From: Pelomonas caseinilytica | GTDB taxonomy: Bacteria; Pseudomonadota; Gammaproteobacteria; Burkholderiales; Burkholderiaceae_C | Assembly (NCBI RefSeq): GCF_021353235.1 | Contig: NZ_JAJTWT010000010.1 | Coordinates: 1 to 64,000, forward strand | Direction of reading: 5' to 3' | Length of the DNA stretch: 64,000 nt | Shown: positions 9,868-45,720 of the stretch, one piece after another | Layout of the letters: every line of letters begins with the position of its first letter | Numbering within the stretch: the first letter of the stretch is position 1 | Notes under the pieces: model-generated | Told to the model about the DNA's origin: nothing | What the model saw: only the letters and a program-made list of their open reading frames with translations | Database searches by the model: none | Made by a program: the position numbers and the translations under genes

Positions 9868-9945
9868 ACAACGCCATTGACTGCTTTTTCATTCACCGAC
9901 GGGCGACCGGCGCAGGGCGCCGGCGCCCGTCTCAAGGAGATTTTC

Positions 9946-14905: not shown

Positions 14906-14913
14906 GGGCAGGC

Positions 14914-15369: not shown

Positions 15370-15394
15370 GGTCTTGGGTGGTTGACGAAAGGGA

Positions 15395-16840: not shown

Positions 16841-16848
16841 GGAAGGGC

Positions 16849-17229
16849 TCACGGGAAGGGTTTGTAGGGGTCGTGACACTCGTTGCAGGCCAGCGCAATG
16901 GCCCGCGCCGCCTGCGCGGCCGCTGCGGCATTGCCCTGGGCGAGGTGGGTGGGAATGGCCGCGGCCTGGCGCTCGCCGTCGCGCGAGAGGGCGACCGCAT
17001 CGGCCGCCGGATAGTCGCGCTCGAAGTAGCTGGCCATGTCGGCGTAGAGCGTCTGCAGCGCCTTGGCATCGGCCACGGCCTCGGTGTGGCGGCCAGCGGC
17101 GAGGTGCTTCTGCACGCTGACGCTCTTGTTGTCGATGGCGCGCATCCACACGCTGAAGTCCAGCCGGGTGGCGGCCTGCGTGAGTGGCGCCGACAGCAGG
17201 GCCGCGGTGACGAGGAGTCGGACCTTCAT
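16849..17229 (-). CDS. Small exported c-type cytochrome (126 aa)
   Basis: Signal peptide (1-19) followed by a helical domain with one haem motif CNECH at the extreme C-terminus (CNECHDPYKPFP), the class II (c'-like, four-helix) arrangement. It shares general layout with the next upstream gene and probably arose by duplication. The start ATG at 17229 overlaps the upstream stop (ATGA). It is likely a periplasmic electron carrier serving the DUF1501/DUF1553 system. Confidence 0.8.
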   Translation of the reverse strand: MKVRLLVTAALLSAPLTQAATRLDFSVWMRAIDNKSVSVQKHLAAGRHTEAVADAKALQTLYADMASYFERDYPAADAVALSRDGERQAAAIPTHLAQGNAAAAAQAARAIALACNECHDPYKPFP

Positions 17230-17603
17230 TTCTTCTTGTAGACCTCGTGGCAGGTCTTGCAGCTGCGCGTGAGATCTCCCAGGCGGTCCTGCGCCGTGTC
17301 GTAGTCGCCCGTCTCGATGGCCGCGACGATGGCCGCCGCGTGCTCGCGCGACTTGCGCGAGAACTCCACGCCGCGGGCAGCGTCGGCCTTGGCGCTGAAG
17401 TGGCCTTCCACCTGCTGGAAGTAGCTGGCCAGCTCCTTGGCGTCATCCAGGGCCTTGCGGTCCTGCAGGCTGATGCGGGAGTCCAGGTTGTGCAGGGTGT
17501 CCTCGGCCTCGCGCATGTCGTCGGCGCTGAGGTCGACCGCGGCGAAGACCGTGCCGGCCACCAGCAAGGGCAGCAAGGCCGTAGCAGTCGCACGCCATAT
17601 CAA
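17226..17603 (-). CDS. Small exported c-type cytochrome (125 aa), TTG start
   Basis: The sequence begins IWRATATALLPLLVAGTVFA (signal peptide) and ends with a single CKTCHEVYKKK haem motif, class II cytochrome c type. The start is inferred as TTG at 17603, which overlaps the stop of the DUF1501 gene (TTGA); no in-frame ATG fits, and a longer frame reads back through the upstream gene. It overlaps the next cytochrome gene by four bases, so the three are translationally coupled. Confidence 0.75.
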   Translation of the reverse strand: MIWRATATALLPLLVAGTVFAAVDLSADDMREAEDTLHNLDSRISLQDRKALDDAKELASYFQQVEGHFSAKADAARGVEFSRKSREHAAAIVAAIETGDYDTAQDRLGDLTRSCKTCHEVYKKK

Positions 17604-19036
17604 GCGAGGATCTCCTTGACGACGTCGCCAAACACGGTCGTCGCCTTCTCCGCACGCCCCTGATGCGCGAACACCAGCTTCTTGTGGTTGAGGCCAAGCT
17701 GCCACAGCAGCGTGGCCTGCAGGTCATACGTGTCGACGATGCCGCTTTCGGCACGCAACCCGATCTCATCGGTCGAGCCATACGTCCCCGGCTTGATGCC
17801 ACCCCCGGCGATCCACTGCGTGTAGCCCCACGGGTTGTGGTCGCGCCCGTCGCCGCTCTGGCCGTAGGGCGTGCGGCCGAACTCGGAGGCCCACACCACC
17901 AGCGTCGTGTCCAGCAGGCCGCGGGCCTTCAGGTCGGCCAGCAGCGCACCCACCGGCTGGTCCACCTGCTTGCACATCACCGCATGGTTCTTCTCCAGGC
18001 CGTTGTGGGCATCCCAGCTGTCCACGCTGTTGTCCGGCGCGCCGGAGATCACGTGCACGAAGCGCACGCCGCGCTCCACCAGCCGGCGGGCGCGCAGCAG
18101 CGCGGTGCCGTACTCGTCGGTCTCCTTGGTACCGATGCCGTAGGCCGTGCGAGTTGCGGCGGTCTCCTTGCTCAGGTCCACGGCCTCGGGCGCGGACACC
18201 TGCATGCGGTAGGCCAGGTCGTAGCTCTTGGCGCGCGCCAGCAGCTCGGTGTCGCCGGGGTAGCGGGCGGCGTGGTCGCCGTTGAGTTGGCGCAGCAGGT
18301 CGAGCTGGGCCTGCTGTTCCTTCTCGGTGATGCCTTCGGGCCGCGCGAGGTGCAGGATGGGCGAGTCGCCCTTGCGGAAGGGTGTGCCCTGCAGGGCCGC
18401 CGGCAGGAAGCCGCTGCTCCAGATCACCGCGCCTCGGCCGCCGCCGGCCGCGCCCACGCCGGTGGGCAGCACGACGAAGGCCGGCAGGTCGGGGTTGGCC
18501 GAGCCCAGGCCGTACTGCACCCAGGCGCCCAGCGCCGGGCGGCCCGGCACCAGGCCGGCGGTGTGCAGCTTCAGCGACGCGATGACGTGGGTGCTGCCCT
18601 CGGTCTTGCTGCCCTTCAGGAAGGCGATGTCGTCGACCTGCTTGGCGATGTTGGGCAGCAGGTCGGACACCCAGGCGCCGCTCTCGCCGTGCTGCTTCCA
18701 GGTGCGCTTGCTGGCGTAGAGGTTGCCGACGCCGCCGTCGGTGGCGGTCTTCAGGTCCTTGCCGAAGCTGTCGGGCAGCGGCGTGCCGGCCAGCTTGATC
18801 AGCTCGGGCTTGTAGTCGAACAGGTCCAGCGTGCTGGGCGCGCCGGCCATGTGCAGCCAGATGACGGCCTTGGCCTTGGGCGTGTGGTGCGGCTGGCGCG
18901 GGGTGGTGGGGTCAAACAGCTCGCTGGCGAAGGCGGCATTCAGGCCACCGAAGCTGCCGAAGCCGAAGGCCCCTGCGGCGGCGGCACCGGCGGCGGTGCC
19001 CAGGAAGTGACGGCGGGAATGATGGTGATGGCTCAT
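17600..19036 (-). CDS. Tat-exported DUF1501 protein (478 aa)
   Basis: DUF1501 family, sulfatase/alkaline-phosphatase-like fold, typical of Planctomycetes. The Tat signal is SRRHFLGTAAGAAAAGAFGF at the N-terminus. Family blocks include KAVIWLHMAGAPSTLDLFDYKP, RGVRFVHVISGAPDNSVDSWDAH (metal-site-like) and VWASEFGRTPYGQSGDGRDH. The enzymatic role is not established for this family. It is encoded 11 bases after the DUF1549/DUF1553 partner, the pairing seen throughout Planctomycetes, and upstream of three cytochromes, implying a redox-linked periplasmic process. Confidence 0.9.
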   Translation of the reverse strand: MSHHHHSRRHFLGTAAGAAAAGAFGFGSFGGLNAAFASELFDPTTPRQPHHTPKAKAVIWLHMAGAPSTLDLFDYKPELIKLAGTPLPDSFGKDLKTATDGGVGNLYASKRTWKQHGESGAWVSDLLPNIAKQVDDIAFLKGSKTEGSTHVIASLKLHTAGLVPGRPALGAWVQYGLGSANPDLPAFVVLPTGVGAAGGGRGAVIWSSGFLPAALQGTPFRKGDSPILHLARPEGITEKEQQAQLDLLRQLNGDHAARYPGDTELLARAKSYDLAYRMQVSAPEAVDLSKETAATRTAYGIGTKETDEYGTALLRARRLVERGVRFVHVISGAPDNSVDSWDAHNGLEKNHAVMCKQVDQPVGALLADLKARGLLDTTLVVWASEFGRTPYGQSGDGRDHNPWGYTQWIAGGGIKPGTYGSTDEIGLRAESGIVDTYDLQATLLWQLGLNHKKLVFAHQGRAEKATTVFGDVVKEILA

Positions 19037-19047
19037 GGCGTCAGGCT

Positions 19048-21519
19048 TCAGAAGCGATAGGTGAATTCATTGGTGTTGACCAGTGTGTGCACGAGGTCGA
19101 CGAAGGCGGCGGCGCGGGCCTTGCTCGGTCCCTTGGTGGGAGATGCACTGGCAACCGTAGCTGGCGTGCCACCACCGTCATCGGGCGACTCGCCCGGCGC
19201 TGCGCTCTTGCGCTTGGCGGCCTGCGCATCCAGGTGGGCCAGCAGGGCCTGGCGCTCGTAGCGGTCAGGCTCGCGCTGGTAGGCCGCCTTGTAGAAACCG
19301 TCGATCTGCTTGGCGAGCTTGGGGTCCACACCCCAGCCGTCGGGCAGGTGCGCCTTCTTGACCGAGGCCAGTTGCTCCGCCTGCAGCTTCTCCTGCGCAT
19401 TCAGGAAAGCCACCAGCTTCTCCTTCTCGCCGGCCGTGGGCTTGCGCGAGAACAGGATCTCGTAGGCCCGGTCGATCTGCGCGCTCTCGCTCGGGCCAGC
19501 TTCCTGGATGACGCGGCCCGCCAGCGCCTGGCTCCAGCCCAGCACGAGGTCGCTGTTGACCAGGGCGAGGGCCTGGGGCGCGGTCGTCGTCACGTCACGC
19601 TTGAAGTGCGGCGACTGCGGGTTGGCCCAGTCGAAGGTCTCCAGCAGCGGATAGGGCGAGTTGCGCAGCACGAAGACGTAGAGGCTGCGACGGTGGTGGT
19701 CGCGCGGGTCCTCGGACGTCTGCCAGCGGTTGCGCTGGCCGCCGATGTCGAAATTGGGCGGAATGGGCGGGTAGACCGCCGGGCCGCCGCGCTTTTCCTC
19801 CAGCAGGCCGGAGGCGGCCAGCAGCGAGTCGCGCAGCTGCTCGGCCTCCAGGCGCTGGCGCGGGAAGGCCCAGAGCAGCTTGTTGTCCGGGTCCTCCTTC
19901 ACCTCGCGGGCCTGGCTGGCCTGGCGGTAGGTGCTGGACAGCAGGATCTGCCTGTGCAGGGTCTTCACGCTCCAGCCGTTCCTGACGAAGTCGGCCGCCA
20001 GCTTGTCGAGCAGTTCGGGGTTGACCGGCTTGGCGCCCGTCTTGCCGAAATCGGCCACCGTGTCGACGATGCCGCGGCCGAAGAACTGGCCCCATTGGCG
20101 GTTGACGAAGACTCGTGCAGTCAGGCCGTTGTCCGGGCTCACCAGCCAGTTGGCCAGCGCCGTGCGGCGGCCCGAGGACGTGGCGGTCGGCTGGATGGGC
20201 AGCGTCGTGTTGTCGGTCAGCAGCGCGGGCAGGCCCGGTTGCACCTCCTGCAGCGGCCGGTCGTAGATGCCCTTGAACAGCACCTTGGTGGGCGGCGCAT
20301 CCGGCCCCAGCTCCACGATCGTCGAGATGGCACCCGGGTCCTTGGGCTTGAGGTGGTCGAACTTCTTCAGCTGCTCGCCCAGGGCCTGGTACTTGGCGTA
20401 GGCCTCCTTGTCCTTGGTCTTGAGCTGGTTCTCCGCATTGCGCGTGCGGCCCTGCATGGTCCACAGGTTGCGGTGGTAGATCCAGCGGTCGTAGGCATTG
20501 CGCTCGGAGGCCGGCTTGTTGATGGACTCGCGCGTGGCGGGCACGAAGCCGGACAGCCGGTCGCTCTCCAGCTTGTCGATGGTGGGCTTGAGGATGGCGT
20601 CGCGTTGCGCGCGGATGTCCTGGGTCGCCGCCTCCCACTTGGCGAGCTGGGCGTCGTACTCGGCCTTGTCCTTGCCGGTCAGCGGCGAGACGTCGTCCTT
20701 CCAGCTGGTGTTCGAAAAGAAGGCCTGGAACTGGTAGTACTCCTGCTGCGTGATCTTCTCGGTCTTGTGGTCGTGGCACTGGGCGCAGCCCAGCGTCGTG
20801 CCCAGGAACACGGAGGCGACCGTGTCGGTCAGGTCGTTGGCGACCTCCTGCTTCTTGAGGTTCAGGTCGCGGGCATTGATCTCGTCGGGCAGGTTGCGCA
20901 GGAAGCCGGTGGCGATCAGCGCCTCGGGCTGGCCGGGCCAGAGCTCGTCGCCGGCGATCTGCTCCTTCACGAAGCGGTCAAAGGGCTTGTCGCTGTTGAA
21001 CGCGTTGACCACGTAGTCGCGGTAGCGCCAGATGTTGGGCCGCGTACCGTCGGTGTTGTAGCCGTCGCTGTCGGCGTAGCGGCTCACGTCCAGCCAGCGA
21101 CGGGCTTGGCGCTCGCCGTAGCGGGGCGAGGCCAGCAGGCGGTCCACCAGCTTCTCGTGCGCCTTGGGCGACTTGTCGTTGACGAAGGCGTTCACCTCCT
21201 CGGGCGTGGGCAGGATGCCCCAGGCGTCGAGCGTGGCGCGGCGGATGTAGGCGCGGCGGTCGGCCTCGGGCGACGGGGCGATGCCCTTGGCCTCCAGCTT
21301 GGCGAGCACGAAGGCATCGAGCGGCTGACGCACCCAGGCCTTGGCCTTGACGGCGGGCGTGGGCAGGTCGGCCTTGAGCGGCGTGTACGACCACGGGCGC
21401 TCGCTGCCCTTGACGAAGCCGCCGGGGGGCGCGTAGTCCTCGGCGGGGCTGAGGGTGGCGAAGCCGGCCAGCAGCGCGGCCAGCGCGAGGGGGGCAAACC
21501 GGAAATTGAGTTGAGGCAC
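19048..21519 (-). CDS. DUF1549/DUF1553 (PSD1-type) exported protein (823 aa)
   Basis: First gene of the operon, with a GTG start at 21519 and ggag just upstream. A signal peptide (1-26) is followed by DUF1549 (about 60-265), with a haem-like CAQCHDHK motif (C245, C248, H249), and DUF1553 (about 440-715, e.g. ARVFVNRQWGQFFGRGIVDT and FRNSPYPLLETFDW). In planctomycetes these proteins often pair with DUF1501 proteins, as here. The function is unknown; the CxxCH suggests a covalently bound haem. The promoter is of sigma-54 type. A planctomycete-type gene pair in a betaproteobacterium suggests old transfer. Confidence 0.9.
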   Translation of the reverse strand: MPQLNFRFAPLALAALLAGFATLSPAEDYAPPGGFVKGSERPWSYTPLKADLPTPAVKAKAWVRQPLDAFVLAKLEAKGIAPSPEADRRAYIRRATLDAWGILPTPEEVNAFVNDKSPKAHEKLVDRLLASPRYGERQARRWLDVSRYADSDGYNTDGTRPNIWRYRDYVVNAFNSDKPFDRFVKEQIAGDELWPGQPEALIATGFLRNLPDEINARDLNLKKQEVANDLTDTVASVFLGTTLGCAQCHDHKTEKITQQEYYQFQAFFSNTSWKDDVSPLTGKDKAEYDAQLAKWEAATQDIRAQRDAILKPTIDKLESDRLSGFVPATRESINKPASERNAYDRWIYHRNLWTMQGRTRNAENQLKTKDKEAYAKYQALGEQLKKFDHLKPKDPGAISTIVELGPDAPPTKVLFKGIYDRPLQEVQPGLPALLTDNTTLPIQPTATSSGRRTALANWLVSPDNGLTARVFVNRQWGQFFGRGIVDTVADFGKTGAKPVNPELLDKLAADFVRNGWSVKTLHRQILLSSTYRQASQAREVKEDPDNKLLWAFPRQRLEAEQLRDSLLAASGLLEEKRGGPAVYPPIPPNFDIGGQRNRWQTSEDPRDHHRRSLYVFVLRNSPYPLLETFDWANPQSPHFKRDVTTTAPQALALVNSDLVLGWSQALAGRVIQEAGPSESAQIDRAYEILFSRKPTAGEKEKLVAFLNAQEKLQAEQLASVKKAHLPDGWGVDPKLAKQIDGFYKAAYQREPDRYERQALLAHLDAQAAKRKSAAPGESPDDGGGTPATVASASPTKGPSKARAAAFVDLVHTLVNTNEFTYRF

Positions 21520-21552
21520 GGGGGTCTCCGGGGAGATGAACTGATGGGGTCA

Positions 21553-21570
21553 GCGCAAAAAGCGCGCCAG
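21553..21570 (-). promoter_or_regulatory. Sigma-54 promoter of the DUF1553/DUF1501/cytochrome operon
   Basis: The minus strand reads TGGCGCGCTTTTTGCG: the GG and GC dinucleotides are exactly ten bases apart, and the -12 box TTGC and -24 box TGGC match the sigma-54 consensus TGGCACG-N4-TTGCA closely. The predicted transcription start lies near 21543, leaving a ~24-base leader before GTG 21519. A perfect enhancer-type palindrome is centred ~105 bp upstream. Confidence 0.7.
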
Positions 21571-21615
21571 CGAAAAGGGGCGGTTCCAGGGCAAAGGCAG
21601 CCCAGGCCTGGCCGC

Positions 21616-21655
21616 GGGGCAACAGCGCTGCTGCGGCGCTGTTGCCCCGGCAACA
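21616..21655. promoter_or_regulatory. Activator-site palindrome and hairpin
   Basis: TGTTGC-cccg-GCAACA (21640-21655) is an exact 16-bp palindrome identical in its arms to the one at 24426-24441. It lies ~105 bp upstream of the predicted start of the DUF1553 operon, the normal distance for an enhancer of a sigma-54 promoter. It overlaps a 13-bp hairpin (21616-21628 with 21636-21648, arm ggggcaacagcgc) directly beyond the stop of the TonB receptor gene, which may also work as that gene's terminator. Confidence 0.65.
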
Positions 21656-21661
21656 GTGGCC

Positions 21662-24253
21662 TTACAACTTCGCGCTGAACTGGATGCCCACGCTGCGCGG
21701 GATGGCCGGCGTGTAGCTGGTGCTGCTGATCGAGCGCACCGTGTTGTCGTCGAAGAGGTTCTTCACGAGCAGCGTCACGTTGAAGCTCTTGTTGCGCGTG
21801 CCGATGCCGATGCCCGCATCCACCGTCGTGCTCTTGGGCACGACCGAGTAGCGCGACAGGTTCACGTCGGAGTAGTAGGACGACGAGAACGCCACATTGC
21901 CGGTGTAGTTGATCTCCAGGTCACCCCAGGCCGGCTGCCGGTAGTCCAGGCCGACATTGCCCGTGTACTTGGCCGCACCCGCCAGCGGCTGGCCGCTGAT
22001 GTCCACGTAGGGCGCCGAGCCGGCGAAGCCGTCTTCGACCCGCTGCGCGGCATTGGGGAAGGACTTGTACTTGGCGTCGTTGTAGGCCGCGGAGAAGCGC
22101 ACGGTGAGGTTGCGGATGCCGCCGTAGACGCCGTCGATCTCCAGGCCCTTGACCTCCACCTTGGGCGCGTTGCCCGTGGCGCTGGTGTAGTAGCGGGTGC
22201 CGTCGTTGGTCTGCGTGGTCGTGTAGACGTCCACCAGGCGCACGCTCTGTTGGTAGTCCTTGATGCGGGTCAGGAAGACGTCGGCGTTCAGGATCAGCGT
22301 CTTGCTGAAGAGGGCCGACTTGACGCCCAGCTCGAACGAGTCAGTCTTCTCGGGCTTCACCGGCGACGACACACCGTTGACGAACTGCGCGATGCCGGCC
22401 TTCTCCCCGTGCTGGTAGGAGGCGTAGCCCGTGACGTCGCGGTCGAACTTGTAGCTCGGGCTCAACACGAGCGCGGGCTGGGTCTTCTTGAAGGGCTCAG
22501 CCTCGGTCGTGGGGAAGAGCACGCCGAGGTTGGCCTGGCGGATGGCCTTCGCATCGGCCACCTGGCGGCGCTGCGCGGTGGTGAGCGCGGCGTAGGTGGC
22601 GACGTTGAAGTACTTCTGGGCCGTGGCGTTGGCCAGGGCAATCTGCGCGGCACTGTTGGTCGCCAGCAGGTCGCCGGTCGCACTGGTCGCGAAGCCGCCC
22701 AGCGGCACGCCGTTAACGCTGACCGGGTTCAGCTCAGGCGCGCTGCCGTTGCTGGTGATGCGGCTGGTGCCGGTGTTGCGGCGGTCCTCGTGCGTGAAGC
22801 GTGCGCCGGTCGTCAGCGTGAGTTCGGGGCTGAAGTGCCAGTTGGCCTGGGCGAAGATGGCCGCGCTCTTGTTGCGGATGTCCTGCACGCCGGTCGGGCT
22901 GTTGTAGGAGGCCTTCACATTGGCCAGGCTGTTGCGCAGCAGGTCGCGACCGGCGCCGTCGGCGTCCAGGCGGCCGTACTGCGCGTTGCTCGCGAACCAG
23001 GCGCCGGCGTCGTTGCCCCACCAGCGGCGGTAGTCCACCTGGTTGTCCACGGCGATGAAGTAGAGCCCGGCCTGGTAGTCCACGAAGCCGCCCGGCGCCG
23101 AGGTCAGGCGCAGCTCCTGCGAGGCCTGACGGTAGTCGTTCCAGAAGCCGCCGGCATTGCGGTAGACGTCGAACGGCGTCGCGTCGTCGTTCACCGCATT
23201 GAAGTGGTAGTTCTTGAAGGCCGTGATGGAGGTGACCGTGTGGCCCGCGACCTGCCAGCTCAGGTCGGCCGTCGCGCCCGCGCTGCCGGTGACGAGGCCG
23301 CGCACGGAATCGGTCGTCAACGTGCTCTTGTAGTCGTCCAGCGTGTAGCCGGTGTTGTCCTTGAACCAGCGGCGCTGCAGGCGCTGCTCGTTGGTCAGGC
23401 TCGTGATCGGTGTGCCGTTCGAGTAGGTGGTCAGCGGGTTGGCCAGGGGCAGCGAGCGGCCGTTGGTCGTCTCTGCGGCGCGCGGCTGCAGGTCGAAGGC
23501 GAAGCGCGCCTTGAAGTCGGGCGACGGCGTCAGCAGGAACTGCACGCGGCCGGAGATGCGGTCGGTGTTGGTGTAGCTGATGTCGCGGTTGTAGGGGTTC
23601 TTGATGTCGCCCTCGCCGCGGTTGGCGCTGAAGGTGCCGCGCCAGGCCAGCAGCCCGTCGACGATCGGGCCACCGATGGCCGCCGTGGCGTACACGCCGC
23701 CGCGCTGACGGAAGGCCAGCGTGAAGTCGGCGGTGGGCGTGAAGCTCGGGCGCTTGGTCGTGAAGATGAGGTTGCCCACGCTCGCGTTCTTGCCCAGCAG
23801 CGTGCCCTGCGGGCCGCGGGTGACCTCGATGGTGTCGATGTCGACGAAGTCGAAGCTGGAGGTCAGCGCGTTGTAGGCATATGAGACGCCGTCCACGATG
23901 ATGCCTACGCTCGGGTCCTGGGCCTCGGTCTGGCCGATCTTGCCGATGCCGCGGATGGAGATGGAGCTGGTGCGCTGGTTGCCCAGGTTCCAGCTGACGT
24001 TGGCGGCGCGCTTGGTGATGTCGTCGATGCCGACGGCGCCCAGGCGGTCGATCTCGGCGCCCTGGATGACCGAGATCGACAGCGGCACGTCCTGCAGCTT
24101 CTCGATGCGGTTGCGGCTGCGCACGGTCACGGCGCCGAGTTCCTGGGTCTCGGCGGGAGGCGGGGTCACCTCTTGCGCGAAGGTGCTGCCGGCAGCGAGC
24201 GTGGCGATGAGGGCGGTCAGCGGTTTGAGGCGATGGCGAGGAGTAGTCGTCAT
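21662..24253 (-). CDS. TonB-dependent outer-membrane receptor (863 aa)
   Basis: Signal peptide (1-26, ending FAQ), then a TonB-box-like and plug region (TQELGAVTVRSRNRIEKLQDVPLSISV..., SISIRGIG, EVTRGPQGTLLGKNA) and a 22-strand barrel ending in an aromatic-poor terminal strand (SVGIQFSAKL). The RNRIEKLQDVPLSISV and VTRGPQGTL blocks are typical of receptors for organic substrates rather than siderophores alone. It would import a bulky ligand into the periplasm with energy from TonB-ExbBD; such a set lies at 44.9-47.4 kb. It has its own sigma-54 promoter and shares an activator site with the divergent rhodanese gene. Confidence 0.92.
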   Translation of the reverse strand: MTTTPRHRLKPLTALIATLAAGSTFAQEVTPPPAETQELGAVTVRSRNRIEKLQDVPLSISVIQGAEIDRLGAVGIDDITKRAANVSWNLGNQRTSSISIRGIGKIGQTEAQDPSVGIIVDGVSYAYNALTSSFDFVDIDTIEVTRGPQGTLLGKNASVGNLIFTTKRPSFTPTADFTLAFRQRGGVYATAAIGGPIVDGLLAWRGTFSANRGEGDIKNPYNRDISYTNTDRISGRVQFLLTPSPDFKARFAFDLQPRAAETTNGRSLPLANPLTTYSNGTPITSLTNEQRLQRRWFKDNTGYTLDDYKSTLTTDSVRGLVTGSAGATADLSWQVAGHTVTSITAFKNYHFNAVNDDATPFDVYRNAGGFWNDYRQASQELRLTSAPGGFVDYQAGLYFIAVDNQVDYRRWWGNDAGAWFASNAQYGRLDADGAGRDLLRNSLANVKASYNSPTGVQDIRNKSAAIFAQANWHFSPELTLTTGARFTHEDRRNTGTSRITSNGSAPELNPVSVNGVPLGGFATSATGDLLATNSAAQIALANATAQKYFNVATYAALTTAQRRQVADAKAIRQANLGVLFPTTEAEPFKKTQPALVLSPSYKFDRDVTGYASYQHGEKAGIAQFVNGVSSPVKPEKTDSFELGVKSALFSKTLILNADVFLTRIKDYQQSVRLVDVYTTTQTNDGTRYYTSATGNAPKVEVKGLEIDGVYGGIRNLTVRFSAAYNDAKYKSFPNAAQRVEDGFAGSAPYVDISGQPLAGAAKYTGNVGLDYRQPAWGDLEINYTGNVAFSSSYYSDVNLSRYSVVPKSTTVDAGIGIGTRNKSFNVTLLVKNLFDDNTVRSISSTSYTPAIPRSVGIQFSAKL

Positions 24254-24294
24254 GAAATGAAGTGATCGGGGATGGGAGGGTTCGGTCACTTCTT

Positions 24295-24310
24295 TGCAGG
24301 GAGCGTGCCC
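24295..24310 (-). promoter_or_regulatory. Sigma-54 promoter of the TonB-dependent receptor
   Basis: The minus strand reads GGGCACGCTCCCTGCA, with GG and GC ten bases apart (-24 GGGCACG, -12 CTGCA). The predicted start is near 24284, ~30 bases before the ATG at 24253. The palindrome at 24426-24441 lies ~150 bp upstream. Confidence 0.65.
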
Positions 24311-24425
24311 AATGCGCAGGGCTTCTAAGCTGATTCGGTTCTCGTTGGCAGGCCTGTTTTTTGCGGGGTTTCCGAGGCTGGAACGCCCATCACGACCCCG
24401 CCGCCCCGACGGGCCGGTGGAGCGC

Positions 24426-24441
24426 TGTTGCCGCAGCAACA
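24426..24441. promoter_or_regulatory. Sigma-54 activator-site palindrome between divergent promoters
   Basis: TGTTGC-cgca-GCAACA is an exact 16-bp palindrome (18 bp with flanking C/G) between the receptor and rhodanese promoters, ~105 bp upstream of the predicted rhodanese start. Further half sites GCAACA (24450-24455) and TGTTGC (24459-24464) lie next to it. Its arms equal those at 21640-21655. Confidence 0.65.
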
Positions 24442-24513
24442 GGCAGTCAGCAACACGCTGTTGCCGGGCGCACAGCGAAGCCTCGGCAAGCGCGGTTTTC
24501 GTCGCACTTTCGC

Positions 24514-24529
24514 TGGCACGGAAGCTGCG
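24514..24529 (+). promoter_or_regulatory. Sigma-54 promoter of the exported rhodanese-like gene
   Basis: TGGCACGGAAGCTGCG: the -24 box TGGCACG is a perfect consensus match and GC follows GG by exactly ten bases. The predicted start is near 24540, 26 bases before the ATG at 24566. Confidence 0.72.
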
Positions 24530-24565
24530 CACGGGTGGGTGTCCGTCACTTCACCGCACGCCCTC

Positions 24566-25051
24566 ATGAAGCACCTCCCCGCCCTCGCCTTCGCCACCCT
24601 GCTCGGCCTGAACACCCTGGCCCTTGCCCAGACCTCGGCCGCGCCGGCCGCAGCCGCCGAGTGGAAGTACAAGACCCAGCGCCTGAAGGCGGCCGAGGTC
24701 GACGCCCTGCTGGCCCAGCCCGAGAAGCTGCTGGTGCTGGACCTGCGCCGCCCCGACGAGCTCATCAAGTACGGCAGCTTCCCGGTCTACCTGAACATCC
24801 AGAACAACCAACTGGACAAGCAGCTCGCCTACCTGCCGAAGGACCGTGTCATCCTGACTGTGTCCAACCACGCACAGCGTGCCGGCCGCGCCGGAGACCT
24901 GCTGACCGAGAAGGGCTTCAAGGTCGTCGGCGCCACCGGCAGCGAAGACTACGAGCAGGAAGGCGGCAAGGCCGTCGCCCACATCCAGCCGCCGGCACCG
25001 CGCGCGCAATCCGCCTCCGAGGGGACGAATGTCGCAGCCCGCCAGCCCTGA
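24566..25051 (+). CDS. Exported rhodanese-fold protein lacking the active Cys (161 aa)
   Basis: Signal peptide (1-22), then one rhodanese domain (about 38-140) with LLVLDLRRPDEL as the CH2A-like motif. The active-site loop reads TVSNHAQRAGRAG; the usual Cys of CxxGxRS is Ser100, so sulfur transfer through a persulfide is not expected and a binding or structural role is more likely. It is transcribed from a consensus sigma-54 promoter, divergent from the TonB receptor. It overlaps the cytochrome b561 gene by 23 bases. Confidence 0.85.
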   Translation: MKHLPALAFATLLGLNTLALAQTSAAPAAAAEWKYKTQRLKAAEVDALLAQPEKLLVLDLRRPDELIKYGSFPVYLNIQNNQLDKQLAYLPKDRVILTVSNHAQRAGRAGDLLTEKGFKVVGATGSEDYEQEGGKAVAHIQPPAPRAQSASEGTNVAARQP

Positions 25052-25703
25052 CGCTACCGAGATCCCCGTGTGGGACGGCCTGCTGCGAGCCTTCCACTGG
25101 GCCCTCGTCGCGCTCGTCGGCGCGGCCATCGCCACGGCCTTGGCCGGTGGCGACTGGATGGCCTGGCATGCCCGCGCGGGCCAGGCCATCGGCGCGCTGC
25201 TGGTGCTGCGGCTGAGCTGGGGCCTGTGGGGCAGCCGCTATGCGCGCTTCACGCAGTTCTGGCCCACGCCGGCGCGCCTGATCGGCTACCTGCGCGGGCG
25301 CTCGCAGGGGCTGGGGCACAACCCGCTCGGCGCGCTGTCGGTGCTGGCGGTGCTCGGCCTGCTGCTGTTCCAGGTGGGCAGCGGCCTGGTCGGCAACGAC
25401 GAGATCGCCTTCACCGGGCCCTGGGCCGGCGCCATCGACGAGGACCTGAGCCTCAAGCTCACGAGCTGGCATCGCCTGGGCGCCAAGGTGCTCTACGGCT
25501 GGATCGCGCTGCACCTGGCGGCGATTGCGCTGCACGGCGTCGTCAGGCGCCACCCGCTGCTGCGCGCGATGTGGACGGGCCGCCGGCCCGGCGACCCCGC
25601 CGCCGCCGCGTCCCGCGTTCCGTTCTGGCGCGTCGGTCTGTCTGTGCTGTTGGCCGCTGCCGCCGGCGTCGTGGCGGCCTCGCCGGGGCTGCTCGGGTTC
25701 TGA
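25029..25703 (+). CDS. Cytochrome b561-type membrane protein (224 aa)
   Basis: Prokaryotic cytochrome b561 / Ni-hydrogenase b-type family with four to five membrane helices. Haem-ligand histidines are seen in LLRAFHWALVAL, MAWHARAGQAIG, LTSWHRLGAKVLYG and ALHLAAIALHG. These proteins pass electrons between the quinone pool and periplasmic c-type cytochromes or oxidoreductases. It is co-expressed with the exported rhodanese (23-base overlap) and lies near an operon with three soluble c-type cytochromes, a plausible electron route for the DUF1501/DUF1553 system. Confidence 0.85.
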   Translation: MSQPASPDATEIPVWDGLLRAFHWALVALVGAAIATALAGGDWMAWHARAGQAIGALLVLRLSWGLWGSRYARFTQFWPTPARLIGYLRGRSQGLGHNPLGALSVLAVLGLLLFQVGSGLVGNDEIAFTGPWAGAIDEDLSLKLTSWHRLGAKVLYGWIALHLAAIALHGVVRRHPLLRAMWTGRRPGDPAAAASRVPFWRVGLSVLLAAAAGVVAASPGLLGF

Positions 25704-25723
25704 AGCACAAACCGCATAAACGT

Positions 25724-25767
25724 CCGCGTTTTGCTTCGTTTGCTGAGAAAGGACGGGGCCCTAGCCT
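25724..25767 (+). promoter_or_regulatory. Promoter of the encapsulin operon with shared upstream block
   Basis: -35 TTTGCT (25739-25744), 17-base spacer, -10 TAGCCT (25762-25767). The block ccgcgttttgcttcgtt (25724-25740) overlaps the -35 box and is repeated exactly in the ccmA promoter (60111-60127, other strand), in the same position relative to its -10 box. It may be an activator site. Confidence 0.55.
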
Positions 25768-25793
25768 TGCTCGGTTTTCGCATGAGAGCCGAC

Positions 25794-26267
25794 ATGAGCA
25801 GCCCTGTTCTCGATGAACCCACTCCCCTCACCCAGGCCCGCGAGGCCGCCCACGCCGCCGGCCTGCCCTATGCCGGCTCCCTGAGCCCGCGCGACGCCTG
25901 GAACCTCGTGCAGGCCGGCCGCGCCGTGCTCGTGGACGTGCGCAGCAACGAGGAGCGCCACTTCGTGGGCCATGTGCCCGGCAGCCTGCACGTGGCCTGG
26001 GCCACCGGCACGTCCCTGAACCGCAACCCGCGCTTCGTCAAGGAGCTGGAGGCCAAGGTCGGCCCCAAGTCCGGCAACGAGCTGCCGGTGCTGCTGCTTT
26101 GCCGCAGCGGCAAGCGCTCGGCCCTGGCTGCCGAAGCCGCCGCCAAGGCGGGCCTCGCCAACGTCTTCAACATCCAGGAAGGCTTCGAGGGCGACAGCGA
26201 CGACCACCGGCAGCGCGGCCACTTCAACGGCTGGCGCTTCCACGGCCTGCCCTGGGTCCAGGACTGA
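25794..26267 (+). CDS. Rhodanese-like sulfurtransferase (157 aa)
   Basis: Single-domain cytoplasmic rhodanese with an intact active site, LLCRSGKRSA (C103), plus AVLVDVRSNEERHFVGHVPGS. It would move sulfane sulfur to or from a persulfide. The ATG at 25794 was chosen (gagag seven bases upstream); a start at 25782 is possible. It heads the operon rhodanese - serine acetyltransferase - encapsulin - cysteine desulfurase, a set described for family 2A encapsulins, so it likely acts on sulfur entering or leaving the compartment. The stop overlaps the next start (TGATG). Confidence 0.88.
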   Translation: MSSPVLDEPTPLTQAREAAHAAGLPYAGSLSPRDAWNLVQAGRAVLVDVRSNEERHFVGHVPGSLHVAWATGTSLNRNPRFVKELEAKVGPKSGNELPVLLLCRSGKRSALAAEAAAKAGLANVFNIQEGFEGDSDDHRQRGHFNGWRFHGLPWVQD

Positions 26268-27202
26268 TGGCCACGGCCGACGACTTGAGCGACATCGTCG
26301 ACGGGCTGCGCGCCGCGCGCCGCCGCTGGCGCGACGCCCACCGCCGCTGGGACACCAGCGGCCGTGAGCTGCCGTCGCGCGAGCTGCTCGCAGGCGTGAT
26401 GGAGCAACTGGCCGGCGCCCTCTTCCCGATGCGCCTGGGCCCGCCCGACCTGCAGCCCGAGGGCGAGGACCACTACGTCGGCCACACCCTCGGCGTGGCC
26501 CTCGCGCGGCTGCGCCAGCAGGTGCAGCTGGAGCTCGGCCACGAGGCCCGCCTGCGCGGCGCCGAGCCGCCGGCCGAAGGCACCGCCGCCGAGCTGGTGG
26601 GCCACTTCGCGCGCCGCCTGCCCGCCGTGCGCGAGCTGCTCGACAGCGACGTGACGGCCGCCTTCCAGGGCGACCCCGCCGCGCGCAGCGTGGACGAGGT
26701 GCTGCTCTGCTACCCCGGCCTGCATGCCCTCATCAGCCACCGCCTCGCGCATGAGCTCTACCGCCTGGGCGTGCCGCTGATCGCGCGCGTCATCGCGGAG
26801 CTGGCCCATGCCGACACCGGCATCGACATCCACCCCGGCGCGCAGATCGGCCCGGGCTGCTTCATCGACCACGGCACCGGCGTCGTCATCGGGGAGACGG
26901 CCGTCCTCGGGCGCGGCGTGCGGCTGTACCAGAACGTCACGTTGGGAGCCAAGAGCTTCCCGACCGACGGCGACGGTCATCTCATCAAGGGCCAGCCGCG
27001 CCACCCGGTCGTCGAGGACGAGGTCGTCATCTACGCCGGCGCCACCGTGCTCGGCCGCATCACGCTGGGCCGCGGCTCGGTCATCGGCGGCAACGTCTGG
27101 CTCACGCGCAGCGTGCCGCCGGGCAGCCGCATCTCGCAGGCCGATTCGCAAGCCCATTCCCCCGGCGACCCGCCTTCGGCCTTCCAGCCGCTGGCCGCCT
27201 GA
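26267..27202 (+). CDS. cysE: Serine O-acetyltransferase (311 aa)
   Basis: Converts L-serine and acetyl-CoA to O-acetylserine for cysteine synthesis. An N-terminal helical domain (about 1-170) precedes left-handed beta-helix hexapeptide repeats (about 180-280): DIHPGAQIGPGCFIDHGTGV, VIGETAVLGRGVRLYQNVTL, then HPVVEDEVVIYAGATVLGRI. The catalytic His region (FIDHGTG) and the substrate loop are intact. The length fits the long EpsC/SrpH type often found with family 2A encapsulins. It overlaps the rhodanese gene by one base and precedes the encapsulin gene by 41 bases. Confidence 0.92.
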   Translation: MATADDLSDIVDGLRAARRRWRDAHRRWDTSGRELPSRELLAGVMEQLAGALFPMRLGPPDLQPEGEDHYVGHTLGVALARLRQQVQLELGHEARLRGAEPPAEGTAAELVGHFARRLPAVRELLDSDVTAAFQGDPAARSVDEVLLCYPGLHALISHRLAHELYRLGVPLIARVIAELAHADTGIDIHPGAQIGPGCFIDHGTGVVIGETAVLGRGVRLYQNVTLGAKSFPTDGDGHLIKGQPRHPVVEDEVVIYAGATVLGRITLGRGSVIGGNVWLTRSVPPGSRISQADSQAHSPGDPPSAFQPLAA

Positions 27203-27243
27203 TTCACCTGACCCCTTCCCCACCACCCCGGAGCCCCTTCCCC

Positions 27244-28167
27244 ATGGCTGACACCCAACAGCTTGCGCTCGGCGACGCCGCCGCGCGGCAGCTTGCCAAC
27301 GCGACCAAGACCGTCCCGCAGCTCTCCACCATCACGCCGCGCTGGCTGACCCACCTGCTGCAATGGATCCCGGTCGAGGCCGGCATCTACCGCCTCAACA
27401 AGGTCGCCGACCCCGAGGCCGTCAAGGTCGCCTGCGCCAAGCGCGACGAGGCCGAGCTGCCCGTCACCTTCGCCGACTACGACGCCGCCCCGCGCGAGTA
27501 CTTCCTGAACGCCGTGGCCACGGTGCTGGACGTGCACACCCGCGTGTCCGACCTCTACAGCAGCCCGCACGACCAGATCAAGGAACAGCTGCGCCTGGTC
27601 ATCGAGACCATCAAGGAGCGCCAGGAGTCTGAGCTCATCAACAATCCCGACTACGGCCTGCTGGCCAACGTCGCGGACGAGCAGCGCATCTCCACCCTCA
27701 CCGGCGCGCCCACGCCCGATGACCTGGACGACCTGCTGAGCAAGGTCTGGAAGGAGCCGGCCTTCTTCCTGACCCACCCGCTGGGCATCGCCGCCTTCGG
27801 CCGCGAGTGCACCCGCCGCGGCGTGCCGCCACCCACCATCAGCCTGTTCGGCAGCCAGTTCCTGACCTGGCGTGGCATTCCACTCATCCCGAGCGACAAG
27901 GTGCCCGTCAACGACGGCAAGACCAGCATCCTGCTGCTGCGCGTGGGCGACAAGCGCCAGGGCGTCGTCGGCCTCTATCAACCCGGCCTGCCGGGCGAAC
28001 AGGGGCCGGGCCTGTCGGTGCGCTTCATGGGCATCAACCGCAACGCCATCGCGAGTTATCTCATCAGTCTGTACTGCTCGCTGGCGGTGCACAGCGACGA
28101 TGCGCTGGCCGTGCTCGAAGACGTGGAAGTGGGCAAATACCATGAGTACCCTGACACCTACCGTTGA
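27244..28167 (+). CDS. srpI: Family 2A encapsulin shell protein, SrpI-like (307 aa)
   Basis: HK97-fold shell protein of family 2A encapsulins, matching SrpI of cyanobacteria and Acinetobacter in length and sequence style: LQWIPVEAGIYRLNKV, SSPHDQIKEQLRLVIETIKERQESELINNP, and a C-terminal half with SLFGSQFLTWRGIPLIPSDK, GLYQPGLPGEQGPGLSVRFM and a final EYPDTYR. Sixty copies are expected to form a ~25-nm cage. The next gene, overlapping by 26 bases, encodes the cargo cysteine desulfurase, and upstream are serine acetyltransferase and rhodanese. Such compartments store sulfur removed from cysteine and are induced by sulfur stress. cggagcccc precedes the start. Confidence 0.92.
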   Translation: MADTQQLALGDAAARQLANATKTVPQLSTITPRWLTHLLQWIPVEAGIYRLNKVADPEAVKVACAKRDEAELPVTFADYDAAPREYFLNAVATVLDVHTRVSDLYSSPHDQIKEQLRLVIETIKERQESELINNPDYGLLANVADEQRISTLTGAPTPDDLDDLLSKVWKEPAFFLTHPLGIAAFGRECTRRGVPPPTISLFGSQFLTWRGIPLIPSDKVPVNDGKTSILLLRVGDKRQGVVGLYQPGLPGEQGPGLSVRFMGINRNAIASYLISLYCSLAVHSDDALAVLEDVEVGKYHEYPDTYR

Positions 28168-29944
28168 CGTGGTGGAGAGCCCGTTCGACGTCGCGTCGCT
28201 CGCGCGCCTGGCCAACGAGATCTTCGGCAGCCTGAACACGGGCAGCGCCCCATCGCTGCAACCGGCGCAGTCCGCCGGCGGCCTCAACGTGCCCGCCAAC
28301 CCGCTGCCCGCCGGCGTTCCCGGCGGCCCGCTGCCCCAGCCGACGACGACGCAGTTCGCCGGCCTGGGCGCCGCGGCGCCGGGCCTCAACCTCGCCCCCA
28401 CCGGCCCCGACCAGGCCGCGGCCCTCGCCCGCCCGTCACCCGCCCGCGCCCCGCATGCGCAGGCCGGCAACGGCGTGCCCGACGTGCTGCTGACCAGCGT
28501 CCCCGGCCTCGACGGGCGTGCGGGCAGCCAGCTGCTCGGCGTGCCGCAGGCGATCACGCCCCCGGCGCGTGAAGCCGCGGCACCGGCGGGTTACTACTTC
28601 CTCGAGCCCGCCCCGGGTAGCGCGCCGGCGCAGACCTCGCTCTACGTGCTGGAACTGAACCGCCACCCCGGCGTGAACGGCCACCACGCCGGCGAGCTGC
28701 CGAACAAGCACCAGTTGCAGGGGCAGCGCCAGCCCTTCGACGTGAACGCCATCCGGCGCGACTTCCCCATCCTGGCGGAGCGCGTCAACGGCAAGCCCCT
28801 GGTCTGGTTCGACAACGCCGCCACCACGCAGAAGCCGCGGGCCGTCATCGACCGCCTCACGCACTTCTACGAGCACGAGAACAGCAACATCCACCGCGCC
28901 GCCCACACCCTGGCCGCGCGTGCGACGGACGCCTACGAGAACGCCCGCAAGACGGTCGCCGGCTTCGTCAACGCCCGCTCGGCCGACGAGGTGATCTTCG
29001 TGCGCGGCGCCACAGAGGCCATCAACCTCGTGGCCAACACCTGGGGCGAGCAGAACGTCGGCGCCGGGGACGAGATCGTCGTGTCGCACCTGGAGCACCA
29101 CGCCAACATCGTGCCCTGGCAGCAGCTCGCGGCCCGCAAGGGCGCGCACCTGCGCGTGATCCCGGTGGACGACACCGGCCAGGTCATCCTGAGCGAGGCC
29201 CAGCGGCTCATCGGCCCGAAGACCAAGCTGCTCGCCGTCACCCAGGTCAGCAATGCGCTGGGCACCGTGGTGCCGGTGCAGGAGCTGGTGGGCATCGCCC
29301 AACGCCAGGGCGTGACGACGCTGGTGGACGGTGCCCAGTCGGTGTCGCACCTGGCGGTGGACGTGCAAGCCATCGGCTGCGACTTCTTCATCTTCAGCGG
29401 CCACAAGATCTTCGGCCCCACCGGCATCGGCGCCGTCGTCGGCCGCAAGGAGGTGCTGGACGCCATCCCGCCCTGGCAGGGCGGCGGCAACATGATTGCT
29501 GACGTGACCTTCGAGCGCACGGTGTTCCAGCCTGCGCCGGCCAAGTTCGAGGCCGGCACCGGCAACATCGCCGACGCGGCGGGCCTCGCCGCGGCGCTGG
29601 ACTACGTGAGCCGCATCGGCCTGGCACCCATCGCCCGCTACGAGCACGACCTGCTGGCCTATGCCACCGAGGCGCTGCGCCCCATCCCCGGCGTGCGCCT
29701 CGTGGGCACGGCGGCCGACAAGGCCAGCGTGCTGAGCTTCGTGCTCGCGGGACACGAGACGGCCGCCGTGGGCCGGGCGCTCGCCGAAGAAGGCATCGCC
29801 GTGCGCGCCGGCCACCACTGCGCCCAGCCCATCCTGCGCCGCTTCGGCCTGGAGGCGACCGTGCGGCCGTCCTTCGCGTTCTACAACACCTGCGACGAGG
29901 TCGACCACTTCATCTCGGTCGTGCGCCGCCTCGCCCGGGCGTGA
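28142..29944 (+). CDS. sufS: Encapsulated cysteine desulfurase with disordered cargo-loading N-terminus (600 aa)
   Basis: Class V aminotransferase-fold, SufS-type desulfurase making alanine and persulfide sulfur from cysteine. Residues 1-~198 form a Pro/Ala/Gly-rich disordered extension with short conserved-looking patches (PFDVASLARLANEIFGSL at 13-30; GYYFLEP near 150), as in the cargo enzyme of family 2A encapsulins, where this part directs loading. The catalytic domain runs from ~199, with PLP Lys K422 (SGHKIFGPTG) and active Cys C560 (RAGHHCAQP). A free SufS has about 400 residues, so the extra 200 are the cargo tail. The start overlaps the encapsulin gene by 26 bases, which couples expression. 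Confidence 0.93.
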   Translation: MSTLTPTVDVVESPFDVASLARLANEIFGSLNTGSAPSLQPAQSAGGLNVPANPLPAGVPGGPLPQPTTTQFAGLGAAAPGLNLAPTGPDQAAALARPSPARAPHAQAGNGVPDVLLTSVPGLDGRAGSQLLGVPQAITPPAREAAAPAGYYFLEPAPGSAPAQTSLYVLELNRHPGVNGHHAGELPNKHQLQGQRQPFDVNAIRRDFPILAERVNGKPLVWFDNAATTQKPRAVIDRLTHFYEHENSNIHRAAHTLAARATDAYENARKTVAGFVNARSADEVIFVRGATEAINLVANTWGEQNVGAGDEIVVSHLEHHANIVPWQQLAARKGAHLRVIPVDDTGQVILSEAQRLIGPKTKLLAVTQVSNALGTVVPVQELVGIAQRQGVTTLVDGAQSVSHLAVDVQAIGCDFFIFSGHKIFGPTGIGAVVGRKEVLDAIPPWQGGGNMIADVTFERTVFQPAPAKFEAGTGNIADAAGLAAALDYVSRIGLAPIARYEHDLLAYATEALRPIPGVRLVGTAADKASVLSFVLAGHETAAVGRALAEEGIAVRAGHHCAQPILRRFGLEATVRPSFAFYNTCDEVDHFISVVRRLARA

Positions 29945-29969
29945 GCGCCCATCCCTGCCCTTGCCGGCC

Positions 29970-30941
29970 ATGCCCTGCTCCTCCCCCCACCAGCCCGTCA
30001 CCACCGAAAGAGTCGATGCGCTGACCGACCGCCTGCTGTCCCTGCTGCAATGGCGCAGCCGCATCTTCCACGCAGGCCAGTACTGCGGGCACTGGCAGGC
30101 CTCCACGGCGGGCCACCAGATGGCCAGCTTCCACTGGGTGCTCGAGGGCCGGTGCTGGCTGCACCGCCCCGGCCAGCCTGCGCTGCAGCTGCAAGCGGGC
30201 GACGGAGTGTGCCTGCTGCGCGACGAGCCTCACCACCTCAGCCCCTGGCCCGACGCCACGTCGACGGACAGCGGCCCGCTGCAGCCCATGCTGGCGGCCC
30301 ACTGCGAGGTGGGCGAAGGCGAAGCCCGCTGCGTGCTGGTCTGCGGCTTCGTGCACTTCGACGGCCCGCAGACCGCCGTGCTGACGGCTTCCCTGCCCCC
30401 TTTGCTGCAACTGCGCGGCGGCAACGACGGCCAGTCCGCCCTGCTGCCGCTGCTGCTCGCCGAGACCCGGCGCATGCCCGACCCCGACAGTCCCGGCCCC
30501 TTGCTGCAGCGCCTGTCGGACCTGCTGCTCATGCTGGCCTTGCGCGAGCCGCTGCGCCAGGCCCTGCAACCCCGCACCAACGGCGGCGGCGCAAGGGGCC
30601 TGCTGGCCCTGGCCGGCGAGCCCTTGCTGGCGCCACTGCTGCAGGCCATCCTCGCCGATCCCGCTGCCGACTGGAGCGCGGAACGCATGGCGGGCGAGCT
30701 TCACCTCTCGCGTGCCAGCTTCTTCCGGCTCTTCACCCAGGCCATCGGCCAGCCGCCCGCGCAATTCCTGCTGGCGCTGCGCATGCAACTGGCCGCGCAG
30801 CGCCTGCGCGAAGGCCTCAGCATCGCGCGCACGGCCGAGCAGGTGGGCTACCAGAGCGAGTCGGCCTTCGCCCGCGCTTTCCAGCGGGTCAATGGTGCCC
30901 AGCCCGGTCAGTTCCGCCGCCTGCACATATCGACCCACTGA
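29970..30941 (+). CDS. AraC-family transcriptional regulator (323 aa)
   Basis: The N-terminal cupin-type ligand domain (about 20-190; AraC_binding/cupin_6 style with FHWVLEGRCWLH and LQAGDGVCLLRDEPHHLSP) is followed by a C-terminal double HTH (about 215-315; ERMAGELHLSRASFFRLFTQ and ARTAEQVGYQSESAFARAFQ). It is directly after the encapsulin cargo gene and before an AhpD-like gene, so it may control either unit; cupin_6-type AraC regulators often sit next to AhpD-like or reductase genes they activate. The ATG at 29970 was chosen; a TTG nine bases earlier is an alternative. Confidence 0.88.
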   Translation: MPCSSPHQPVTTERVDALTDRLLSLLQWRSRIFHAGQYCGHWQASTAGHQMASFHWVLEGRCWLHRPGQPALQLQAGDGVCLLRDEPHHLSPWPDATSTDSGPLQPMLAAHCEVGEGEARCVLVCGFVHFDGPQTAVLTASLPPLLQLRGGNDGQSALLPLLLAETRRMPDPDSPGPLLQRLSDLLLMLALREPLRQALQPRTNGGGARGLLALAGEPLLAPLLQAILADPAADWSAERMAGELHLSRASFFRLFTQAIGQPPAQFLLALRMQLAAQRLREGLSIARTAEQVGYQSESAFARAFQRVNGAQPGQFRRLHISTH

Positions 30942-43520: not shown

Positions 43521-43549
43521 GGGCGTGTCGTCAGTGGATGGAGCGGTTC

Positions 43550-43578
43550 ACTCTAGGGAGCCCGACCCGCCCCGACAA
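43550..43578 (-). promoter_or_regulatory. Promoter of sbp
   Basis: On the minus strand -35 TTGTCG (43578-43573), 17-base spacer, -10 TAGAGT (43555-43550), 30 bases before the sbp ATG. Upstream are gagaacttgttct and the block cgcatgagcttg (43604-43593). Confidence 0.55.
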
Positions 43579-43702: not shown

Positions 43703-43710
43703 GCCGCCGC

Positions 43711-45710: not shown

Positions 45711-45720
45711 GGCCCACGCC

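Follow-up and report, generated by a model that had tools for sequence, protein, structure and literature searches.

Palindromic sites upstream of -24/-12 promoters suggest an SfnR-like sigma-54 regulon in Pelomonas caseinilytica

Introduction

The sensorless sigma-54 activator SfnR of Pseudomonas (SfnR1/SfnR2), together with the msuEDC and sfnFG genes, is the closest described counterpart of the system analyzed here. That system consists of two palindromes, three -24/-12 promoters of the sigma-54 type and the gene of an SfnR-like activator, all within a 64,000-nucleotide stretch of DNA (hereafter the window) from Pelomonas caseinilytica (contig NZ_JAJTWT010000010.1, positions 1 to 64,000). 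It resembles the Pseudomonas system in the sensorless activator and in a composite operator that is the same at the non-spacer positions. It differs in the genes behind the promoters, which are not msu/sfn genes but an operon of DUF1549/1553 and DUF1501 genes, a TonB-receptor gene and a rhodanese/cytochrome unit, and in the position of its activator in a phylogenetic tree. A role of SfnR in the use of sulfones and sulfonates is described in PMC8234197.

Other described systems are also comparable with the window. Tandem enhancers of the NtrC type consist of a pair of sites that lie, as in the window, upstream of a -24/-12 promoter with about three helical turns between them; the window differs in the sequence of the dyad and in an activator that has no receiver domain. 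The planctomycete PSCyt2-PSD1/DUF1501 pairs share their domains and the DUF1501 neighbor with the window, whereas the window protein has no N-terminal cytochrome c6-like part and its gene is preceded by a sigma-54 promoter and a putative enhancer. According to a paper of 2017 (PMC5615132), planctomycete-type cytochrome/PSD proteins of this kind had no known function. In the clusters of type 2A encapsulin SrpI and cysteine desulfurase, as in the window, the SrpI shell gene and a SufS-like gene stand side by side; the window differs in a possible read-through from a sigma-54 promoter. A link between DUF1501/DUF1553 proteins and SfnR was not found in the portions of the literature consulted, by searches that were not aimed at that pairing.

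Results and Discussion

Palindromes and promoters at the locus

It is probable that the window encodes an SfnR-like sigma-54 regulon for sulfur scavenging, which comprises the DUF1549/1553-DUF1501 operon, the TonB receptor and the rhodanese/cytochrome b561 unit, and within which we infer the binding of the activator, the control by sulfate and the substrate. A preliminary description, made from the letters of the DNA alone, had reported two exact palindromes, TGTTGC-N4-GCAACA, and three -24/-12 promoters. Both palindromes were found exactly where they had been placed, and the three promoters within a base of the reported positions (Table 1). In all three, GG and GC are 10 bp apart in a context like TGGCACG-N4-TTGCA, and the scores are 13.7-14.8 bits. 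The palindromes had been put about 105 bp upstream of predicted starts, which is too short; the actual distances are 120 bp for DUF1553, 172 bp for the TonB receptor and 124 bp for the rhodanese (ATG at 24566).

The arms are the same in both palindromes and the N4 spacers are different. No further exact copy exists in the whole genome (5,980,893 bases in 40 contigs); the two are separated by 2.8 kb, and a backwards-read control of the search gave none. The genome scan proposed in the preliminary description found the palindrome only here, beside the TonB-receptor gene and 70-115 bp upstream of the three -24/-12 sites. A loose form, TGYTGM-N4-KCARCA, was uninformative about a genome-wide regulon, since its 21 places compare with 22 in the backwards control, which is the chance level. 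Each palindrome is accompanied by a further TGTTGC half-site; at the second one, CGCTGTTGCCG is present twice, at 24423 and 24456, a pitch of 33 bp.

Table 1. Features of the regulon and its surroundings, in window coordinates.
Feature	Position	Strand	Remarks
Enhancer dyad (putative), distal, TGTTGC-N4-GCAACA, TGTTGCCCCGGCAACA	21640-21655		exact match; would serve the DUF1553 operon; 70 bp upstream of the -24 box
Proximal TGTTGC half-site	21619-21624	-	31 bp downstream of the distal half (repeat 21619/21650), about three helical turns
Composite operator (putative), 38 bp	21619-21656		dyad and proximal half-site
Enhancer dyad (putative), TGTTGC-N4-GCAACA, TGTTGCCGCAGCAACA	24426-24441		exact match; common to the divergent TonB-receptor and rhodanese promoters; -24 boxes 115 and 72 bp away
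Second TGTTGC half-site	24459-24464	+	33 bp from the first (24426/24459)
Sigma-54 promoter (predicted), TGGCGCG-N4-TTGCG, TGGCGCGCTTTTTGCG	21554-21569	-	DUF1549/1553-DUF1501 operon
Sigma-54 promoter (predicted), GGGCACG-N4-CTGCA, GGGCACGCTCCCTGCA	24295-24310	-	TonB-receptor gene
Sigma-54 promoter (predicted), TGGCACG-N4-CTGCG, TGGCACGGAAGCTGCG	24514-24529	+	rhodanese/cytochrome b561 unit
SfnR-like sigma-54 activator, 376 aa	43711-44841	+	about 23 N-terminal residues, AAA+ with GAYTGA loop, Fis-type helix-turn-helix (HTH)
Sulfate-binding protein	42528-43520	-	NF008022 above cut-off; divergent from the activator
DUF1549/DUF1553 (PSCyt2/PSD1) protein	19048-21519	-	PF07583, PF07587; heme motif CxxCH; opens the minus-strand operon
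DUF1501 protein	17600-19036	-	PF07394; 11 bp after DUF1553; distant sulfatase/alkaline-phosphatase fold
AhpC/TSA + SMP-30 domain protein	15395-17593	-	6 bp after DUF1501
Cytochrome c'	14914-15717 (longest frame)	-	PF01322; real start probably near 15369 or 15405
TonB-dependent receptor	21662-24253	-	PF00593, PF07715 (on the longer frame to 24532)
Rhodanese-like protein	24566-25051	+	PF00581, E 0.00075, 20.3 bits (below the cut-off of 22.2); first plus-strand gene
Cytochrome b561	25029-25703	+	PF01292
Rhodanese, hexapeptide acyltransferase (serine acetyltransferase-like), SrpI, SufS-like cysteine desulfurase	25731-29944	+	PF00581, PF00132, PF19307, PF00266
Type 2A encapsulin SrpI	27244-28167	+	PF19307

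Spacing between dyads and promoters

The spacing was analyzed in 52 stretches (967,535 bases), namely the window, 16 stretches from the DUF1553 search, 28 mostly around activator genes and 7 neighboring ones. A pair was defined as a dyad that departs from the loose form at no more than one position and a -24/-12 site of at least 13.5 bits within 400 bp of each other. The dyad was upstream of the -24/-12 site in 72 pairs and downstream in 5, and the distances showed two peaks, at 50-54 and 81-84 bp, where chance gives 0.21 per 10-bp bin. This one-sided placement at preferred distances is that of an upstream activating site. Between the two peaks there are about 31 bp, or three helical turns, and the half-sites of the window have a similar pitch (31 and 33 bp).

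In the DUF1553 and activator stretches, 47 of the 94 sites of at least 13.5 bits had a dyad 30-130 bp upstream, compared with 1 downstream. When the DUF1553 set was reduced to one stretch per genus, the dyad was found at this distance upstream in 13/28 and downstream in 1; the 7 neighboring stretches gave 0/3. Twenty-one stretches came from genomes that are free of DUF1553, and there 15 of the 36 promoters, located in 7 of these stretches, had a dyad 30-130 bp upstream and none had one downstream. The spacing signal therefore comes from more than the DUF1553 loci alone.

Conservation in relatives

Of the 299 genomes examined in the family, 16 have relatives of the DUF1549/1553 protein (E <= 1e-60), counting the genome of the window and one genome with a fragment (G282). 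Sixteen stretches were taken from 14 other genomes, and 15 of them carry the DUF1553 gene; G282 was counted and its stretch left out. Among the matches listed, the boxes TGGCGCG and TTGCG precede DUF1553 in the window and in L051, L052, L055 and L057-L060 with a changed N4, and variant boxes precede it in L053 (TGGCCCG/TTGCG), L054 (TGGCGCA/TTGCA) and L062 (TGGCGCG/TTGCA). The promoter of the TonB receptor is similar and in the same place in L051, L052 and L058-L060, and weaker or altered in L053, L055, L062 and L063. That on the rhodanese side is similar and in the same place in L051, L052, L058-L060, L061 and L201, and 12 of the 51 stretches other than the window contain a relative of the rhodanese itself (24566-25051).

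A dyad with no more than two mismatches was present in 17 of 28 regions upstream of DUF1553 and TonB-receptor relatives in other genomes, while 500 dinucleotide shuffles averaged 0.79 and never exceeded 5; the 28 regions are related by descent, and the shuffles overstate their independence. With the N4 spacer, TGTTGC ranked first among 60 permuted half-sites and second among all 4,096, behind TGCTGC. The recurrence of the dyad at orthologous places in other genera, the retention of the -24/-12 boxes and the upstream-only spacing support the proposal of the preliminary description that the palindromes are enhancer sites. Outside the window, the exact palindrome was found at 15 places, of which only L026 and L020 have a -24/-12 site of at least 12.5 bits within 20-250 bp (at distances of 125 and 22 bp, respectively); the L026 site also lies in L056, before a sulfate-binding gene. 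At the level of the class the sample is thin, with DUF1553 in 1 of 229 genomes, that of the window itself, and the activator in 3 of 229.

The activator gene at 43711

The predicted product of the gene at 43711 has the sensorless architecture of SfnR, with a short N-terminus, an AAA+ sigma-54 domain and an HTH of the Fis type; a sensor domain was not found. On the longer frame (43447-44841) the Pfam families PF00158, PF25601 and PF02954 were recognized, and among the 25 of 29 NCBIfam families listed for the activator all were below their cut-offs. Among the 299 family genomes, 33 have homologues at E <= 1e-85. They are present in 15 of the 16 genomes with DUF1553, compared with 18 of the 283 others (Fisher p 2e-15), the exception being G282, which has the DUF1553 fragment only. 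Counted by genus, the activator occurs in 12/12 with DUF1553 compared with 15/129 (p 2e-10); relatedness inflates such tests, and the genus count is the safer one. All 14 genomes with the TonB receptor also have the activator. In 8 of the 15 DUF1553 stretches its gene lies on the same stretch (L051, L053, L054, L058-L060, L065 and L066).

A tree of activators was built from 39 rows, 36 of them selected at more than 300 bits and 250 aa and 3 being references, and was rooted at the midpoint only. A split with support of 100/98 separates 12 rows from 27. The 12-row side contains the two P. aeruginosa activators, the sfnG-linked one of B. pyrrocinia, and L207, L211, L213, L215-L218, L220 and L222. 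The 27-row side contains the window activator and all 16 rows from DUF1553 genomes. Since the window activator lies across this split from the msu/sfn-linked references, we call it SfnR-like and not SfnR. By sequence it is a relative and not SfnR itself, and it would form a sister branch with the root placed between the two sides. The preliminary description of a sensorless, SfnR-like activator is supported by the architecture, the identity to the Pseudomonas proteins and the co-occurrence with the target genes.

Domains of the ExbB and ExbD types follow the activator gene at 45294-46143 and might represent a dedicated TonB energy system; ExbD relatives are also found near the activator in L051, L054 and L196. 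A sulfatase gene (47367-48749) is likewise near the activator. The genome G016 (L208, L210 and L211) has five matches to SfnR-like activators, four of them arranged as two close pairs and the fifth alone; it has TonB-receptor relatives on one contig and no DUF1553 match.

The msu operator and the proposed link to sulfur

In P. aeruginosa HPA0170, two activators flank the genes msuE, ssuD and that of an acyl-CoA dehydrogenase, one before and one after them. The window activator is 60.5% identical to the one after the msu operon and 57.6% identical to the other. The arrangement resembles that described for sfnR1 and sfnR2 in PMC8234197, and the two flanking activators are presumably sfnR1 and sfnR2. 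Upstream of msuE, the palindrome TGTTGCCCGGGCAACA is separated from the -24 box by 83 bp, compared with 70-115 bp for the dyads of the window. The msuE composite, CTGTTGC-N4-GCAACAG-N5-CAGCAGCGCTGTTGC, is identical to window positions 21619-21656 (minus strand) at 29 of 29 non-spacer positions and at 32 of 38 overall, the spacers having been defined after looking at the alignment. In B. pyrrocinia, the msuE promoter has a dyad 170 bp upstream.

For 24 dyad/promoter pairs, no gene was already known behind the pair; an open frame was obtained for 22, and 19 of these were scanned. Thirteen of the 19 look like organosulfur enzymes or transport. They include MsuE above the curated cut-off (L207, L212 and L213), an FMN reductase (L215), alkanesulfonate monooxygenase above (L207 and L213) or below the cut-off (L209), luciferase-like monooxygenases (L216 and L217), SfnB-like proteins and a taurine/sulfonate-type permease below the cut-off (L212 and L213, and L214, respectively), and a sulfatase (L056). 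The other six are solute-binding proteins (L209 and L217), a protease (L056) and frames with no family match (L065, L199 and L216). From neighbors and homologues, we infer that the regulon of the window would respond to sulfur starvation. Sulfur scavenging is a good prediction for these Burkholderiales rather than a proven general role.

Evidence against the regulon and alternative interpretations

A number of observations weigh against an SfnR-like regulon for sulfur scavenging. As to the activator and its sulfur link, the window activator is separated from the msu/sfn-linked references as described above, and of the genes behind the pairs, L207, L213 and L215-L217 belong to the other side of the tree, while the evidence on the side of the window is thinner and comes from L212, L214, L209 and L056. 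The MsuD matches above the cut-off and most of the MsuE-type matches are on the reference side. In the window genome itself, the one alkanesulfonate monooxygenase-like (msuD-like) gene has no dyad/promoter pair, and the window scan found none for the sulfate-binding gene beside the activator. A plasmid of Saccharobesus litoralis (L249, 8863-17824) carries a module of DUF1549/1553, DUF1501, cytochrome c, cytochrome b and TonB receptor in a neighborhood of pectin degradation (GH88, pectate lyase), and no activator was found in the 20 kb of incomplete annotation covered. G238, a genome of the same genus as that of the window, has SrpI and no activator match.

As to the sites, 11 of the 28 orthologous upstream regions have no dyad at two mismatches or fewer. 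When spacers of 0-15 were compared over these regions, N7 scored nearly as high as N4 (16 and 17; the rest 0-5), mostly at the same places through a CTGCTG overlap; N7 was rejected as a separate signal for this reason. The exact form CTGTTGC-N4-GCAACAG, found in 2 of the 33 activator-bearing genomes and 14 of the 266 others, is not enriched and was discarded as a marker of activator genomes. The bit scores of the sigma-54 sites are to be taken as approximate, and the number of sites is unexceptional: the window has 7 of at least 12.5 bits, and 20 single-base shuffles averaged 4.8 with no more than 8 in any one. As judged from the sequence, the three -24/-12 sites are convincing through conservation and their spacing to the palindromes rather than through number.

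It is rather unlikely, though worth weighing, that the dyads serve another sigma-54 activator of the genome or that the SfnR-like activator answers to a cue other than sulfur. The genome has 31 first-look candidates for sigma-54 activators, six of which were scored; the gene at 43711 is 19-22 kb from the palindromes, and its product stands apart from the msu/sfn-linked activators. However, only one protein of the genome matches at E <= 1e-85, the activator co-occurs nearly completely with the target genes and often shares their stretch, and dyad-promoter pairs also precede organosulfur genes. A regulator independent of sigma-54, such as a repressor or a CysB-like factor, with the -24/-12 matches due to chance, is very improbable. 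HTH dimers commonly bind palindromes with a short spacer, and the number of -24/-12 sites in the window is not above chance. The boxes are nevertheless kept across genera while their spacers change, and dyads lie almost exclusively on the upstream side of the promoters; a scan of 14800-30000 for sigma-70-type promoters gave no match, which is weak evidence, as 0.4 were expected. A reading of the palindromes as terminators of transcription, or as RNA hairpins of another kind, is hardly credible and was rejected: an inverted repeat with 17-nt arms of 94% complementarity (21615-21649) does lie just past the stop codon of the TonB receptor (21662-21664), but no T-run follows it, the terminator scan misses it, the copy at 24426 is between divergent genes, where no transcript end is expected, and terminators would not be expected to keep to the upstream side of -24 boxes.

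Proposed mechanism

In the SfnR-like sigma-54 regulon proposed here, the palindromes would be upstream activating sites for the 43711 product. When sulfate is short, the activator would be made or become active and would bind the strong distal dyad together with the degenerate half-site proximal to it, at a distance of about 31-33 bp. By means of its GAYTGA loop and its ATPase, the activator would then open the sigma-54 RNA polymerase waiting at the three -24/-12 promoters. The genes switched on would be the operon of DUF1549/1553, DUF1501, AhpC/SMP30 and cytochrome c', the TonB receptor, and the divergent rhodanese-cytochrome b561 unit, from which transcription may extend into the genes of encapsulin and cysteine desulfurase. 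Together, the encoded proteins would make up a heme-linked system in the periplasm, freeing sulfur from a substrate imported by the TonB receptor.

More tentatively, DUF1549/1553 and DUF1501 might constitute a heme-dependent machinery of the periplasm for removing sulfur from organic molecules, such as sulfate esters or sulfonates entering through the TonB receptor. In these Burkholderiales it would have been wired to a second, diverged SfnR-like branch using the msu operator; we regard this as a possibility short of a likely one. A link to sulfur scavenging in a proteobacterium would provide a concrete growth condition and a mutant test for the planctomycete-type cytochrome/PSD proteins. It would also extend the msu-type operator to a diverged activator branch and to new targets, namely a receptor of the outer membrane, cytochromes and possibly an encapsulin.

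Proteins of the DUF1553 operon

In the DUF1553 protein, C245, A246, C248 and H249 are invariant in 28 sequences. Its model (mean pLDDT 82.9) gave no PDB match at E <= 0.001. The model of the DUF1501 protein (mean pLDDT 82.2) matches choline sulfatase and other folds of the alkaline-phosphatase superfamily, with a best E of 3.2e-7 and TM of 0.27-0.45 among the 50 matches listed. The active-site motif of formylglycine (S1) sulfatases is C/S-x-P-x-R, and it is absent from the DUF1501 consensus of 37 sequences. The DUF1501 protein is only distantly similar to sulfatases, in fold, and is probably not a formylglycine sulfatase.

In a wide comparison of DUF1553, the best 80 loci of a capped list (L067-L146) comprised 79 from other phyla (planctomycetes, verrucomicrobia and acidobacteria) and one from Paucibacter. 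A DUF1501 relative is near DUF1553 in 71 of these best 80 loci. Many of their DUF1553 proteins have an extra N-terminal part with a profile like that of cytochrome c6.

The encapsulin cluster and the wider neighborhood

The encapsulin cluster (25731-29944) lies directly downstream of the rhodanese/cytochrome b561 genes. Its PF19307 shell stands beside a cysteine desulfurase, as in type 2A encapsulin systems. The cluster is possibly co-transcribed with 24566-25703, as the small gaps and overlaps and the lack of an excess of terminator-like sites suggest; only one such site, at 25754-25769, was found, which is the chance level. SrpI is present in 20 of the 33 activator genomes and in 36 of the 266 others, so that 36 of the 56 SrpI genomes of the family are without the activator. 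Control of SrpI by the regulon is uncertain because G238, as noted above, has SrpI without the activator and G156 has the activator and DUF1553 with no SrpI match. In Synechococcus, SrpI is described as induced by sulfur starvation (PMC8049743).

About 10 kb from the regulon, at 7909-10980, the window also encodes adjoining proteins with Mu-transposase-C and AAA_22 domains, which could be a Tn7-type transposition pair.

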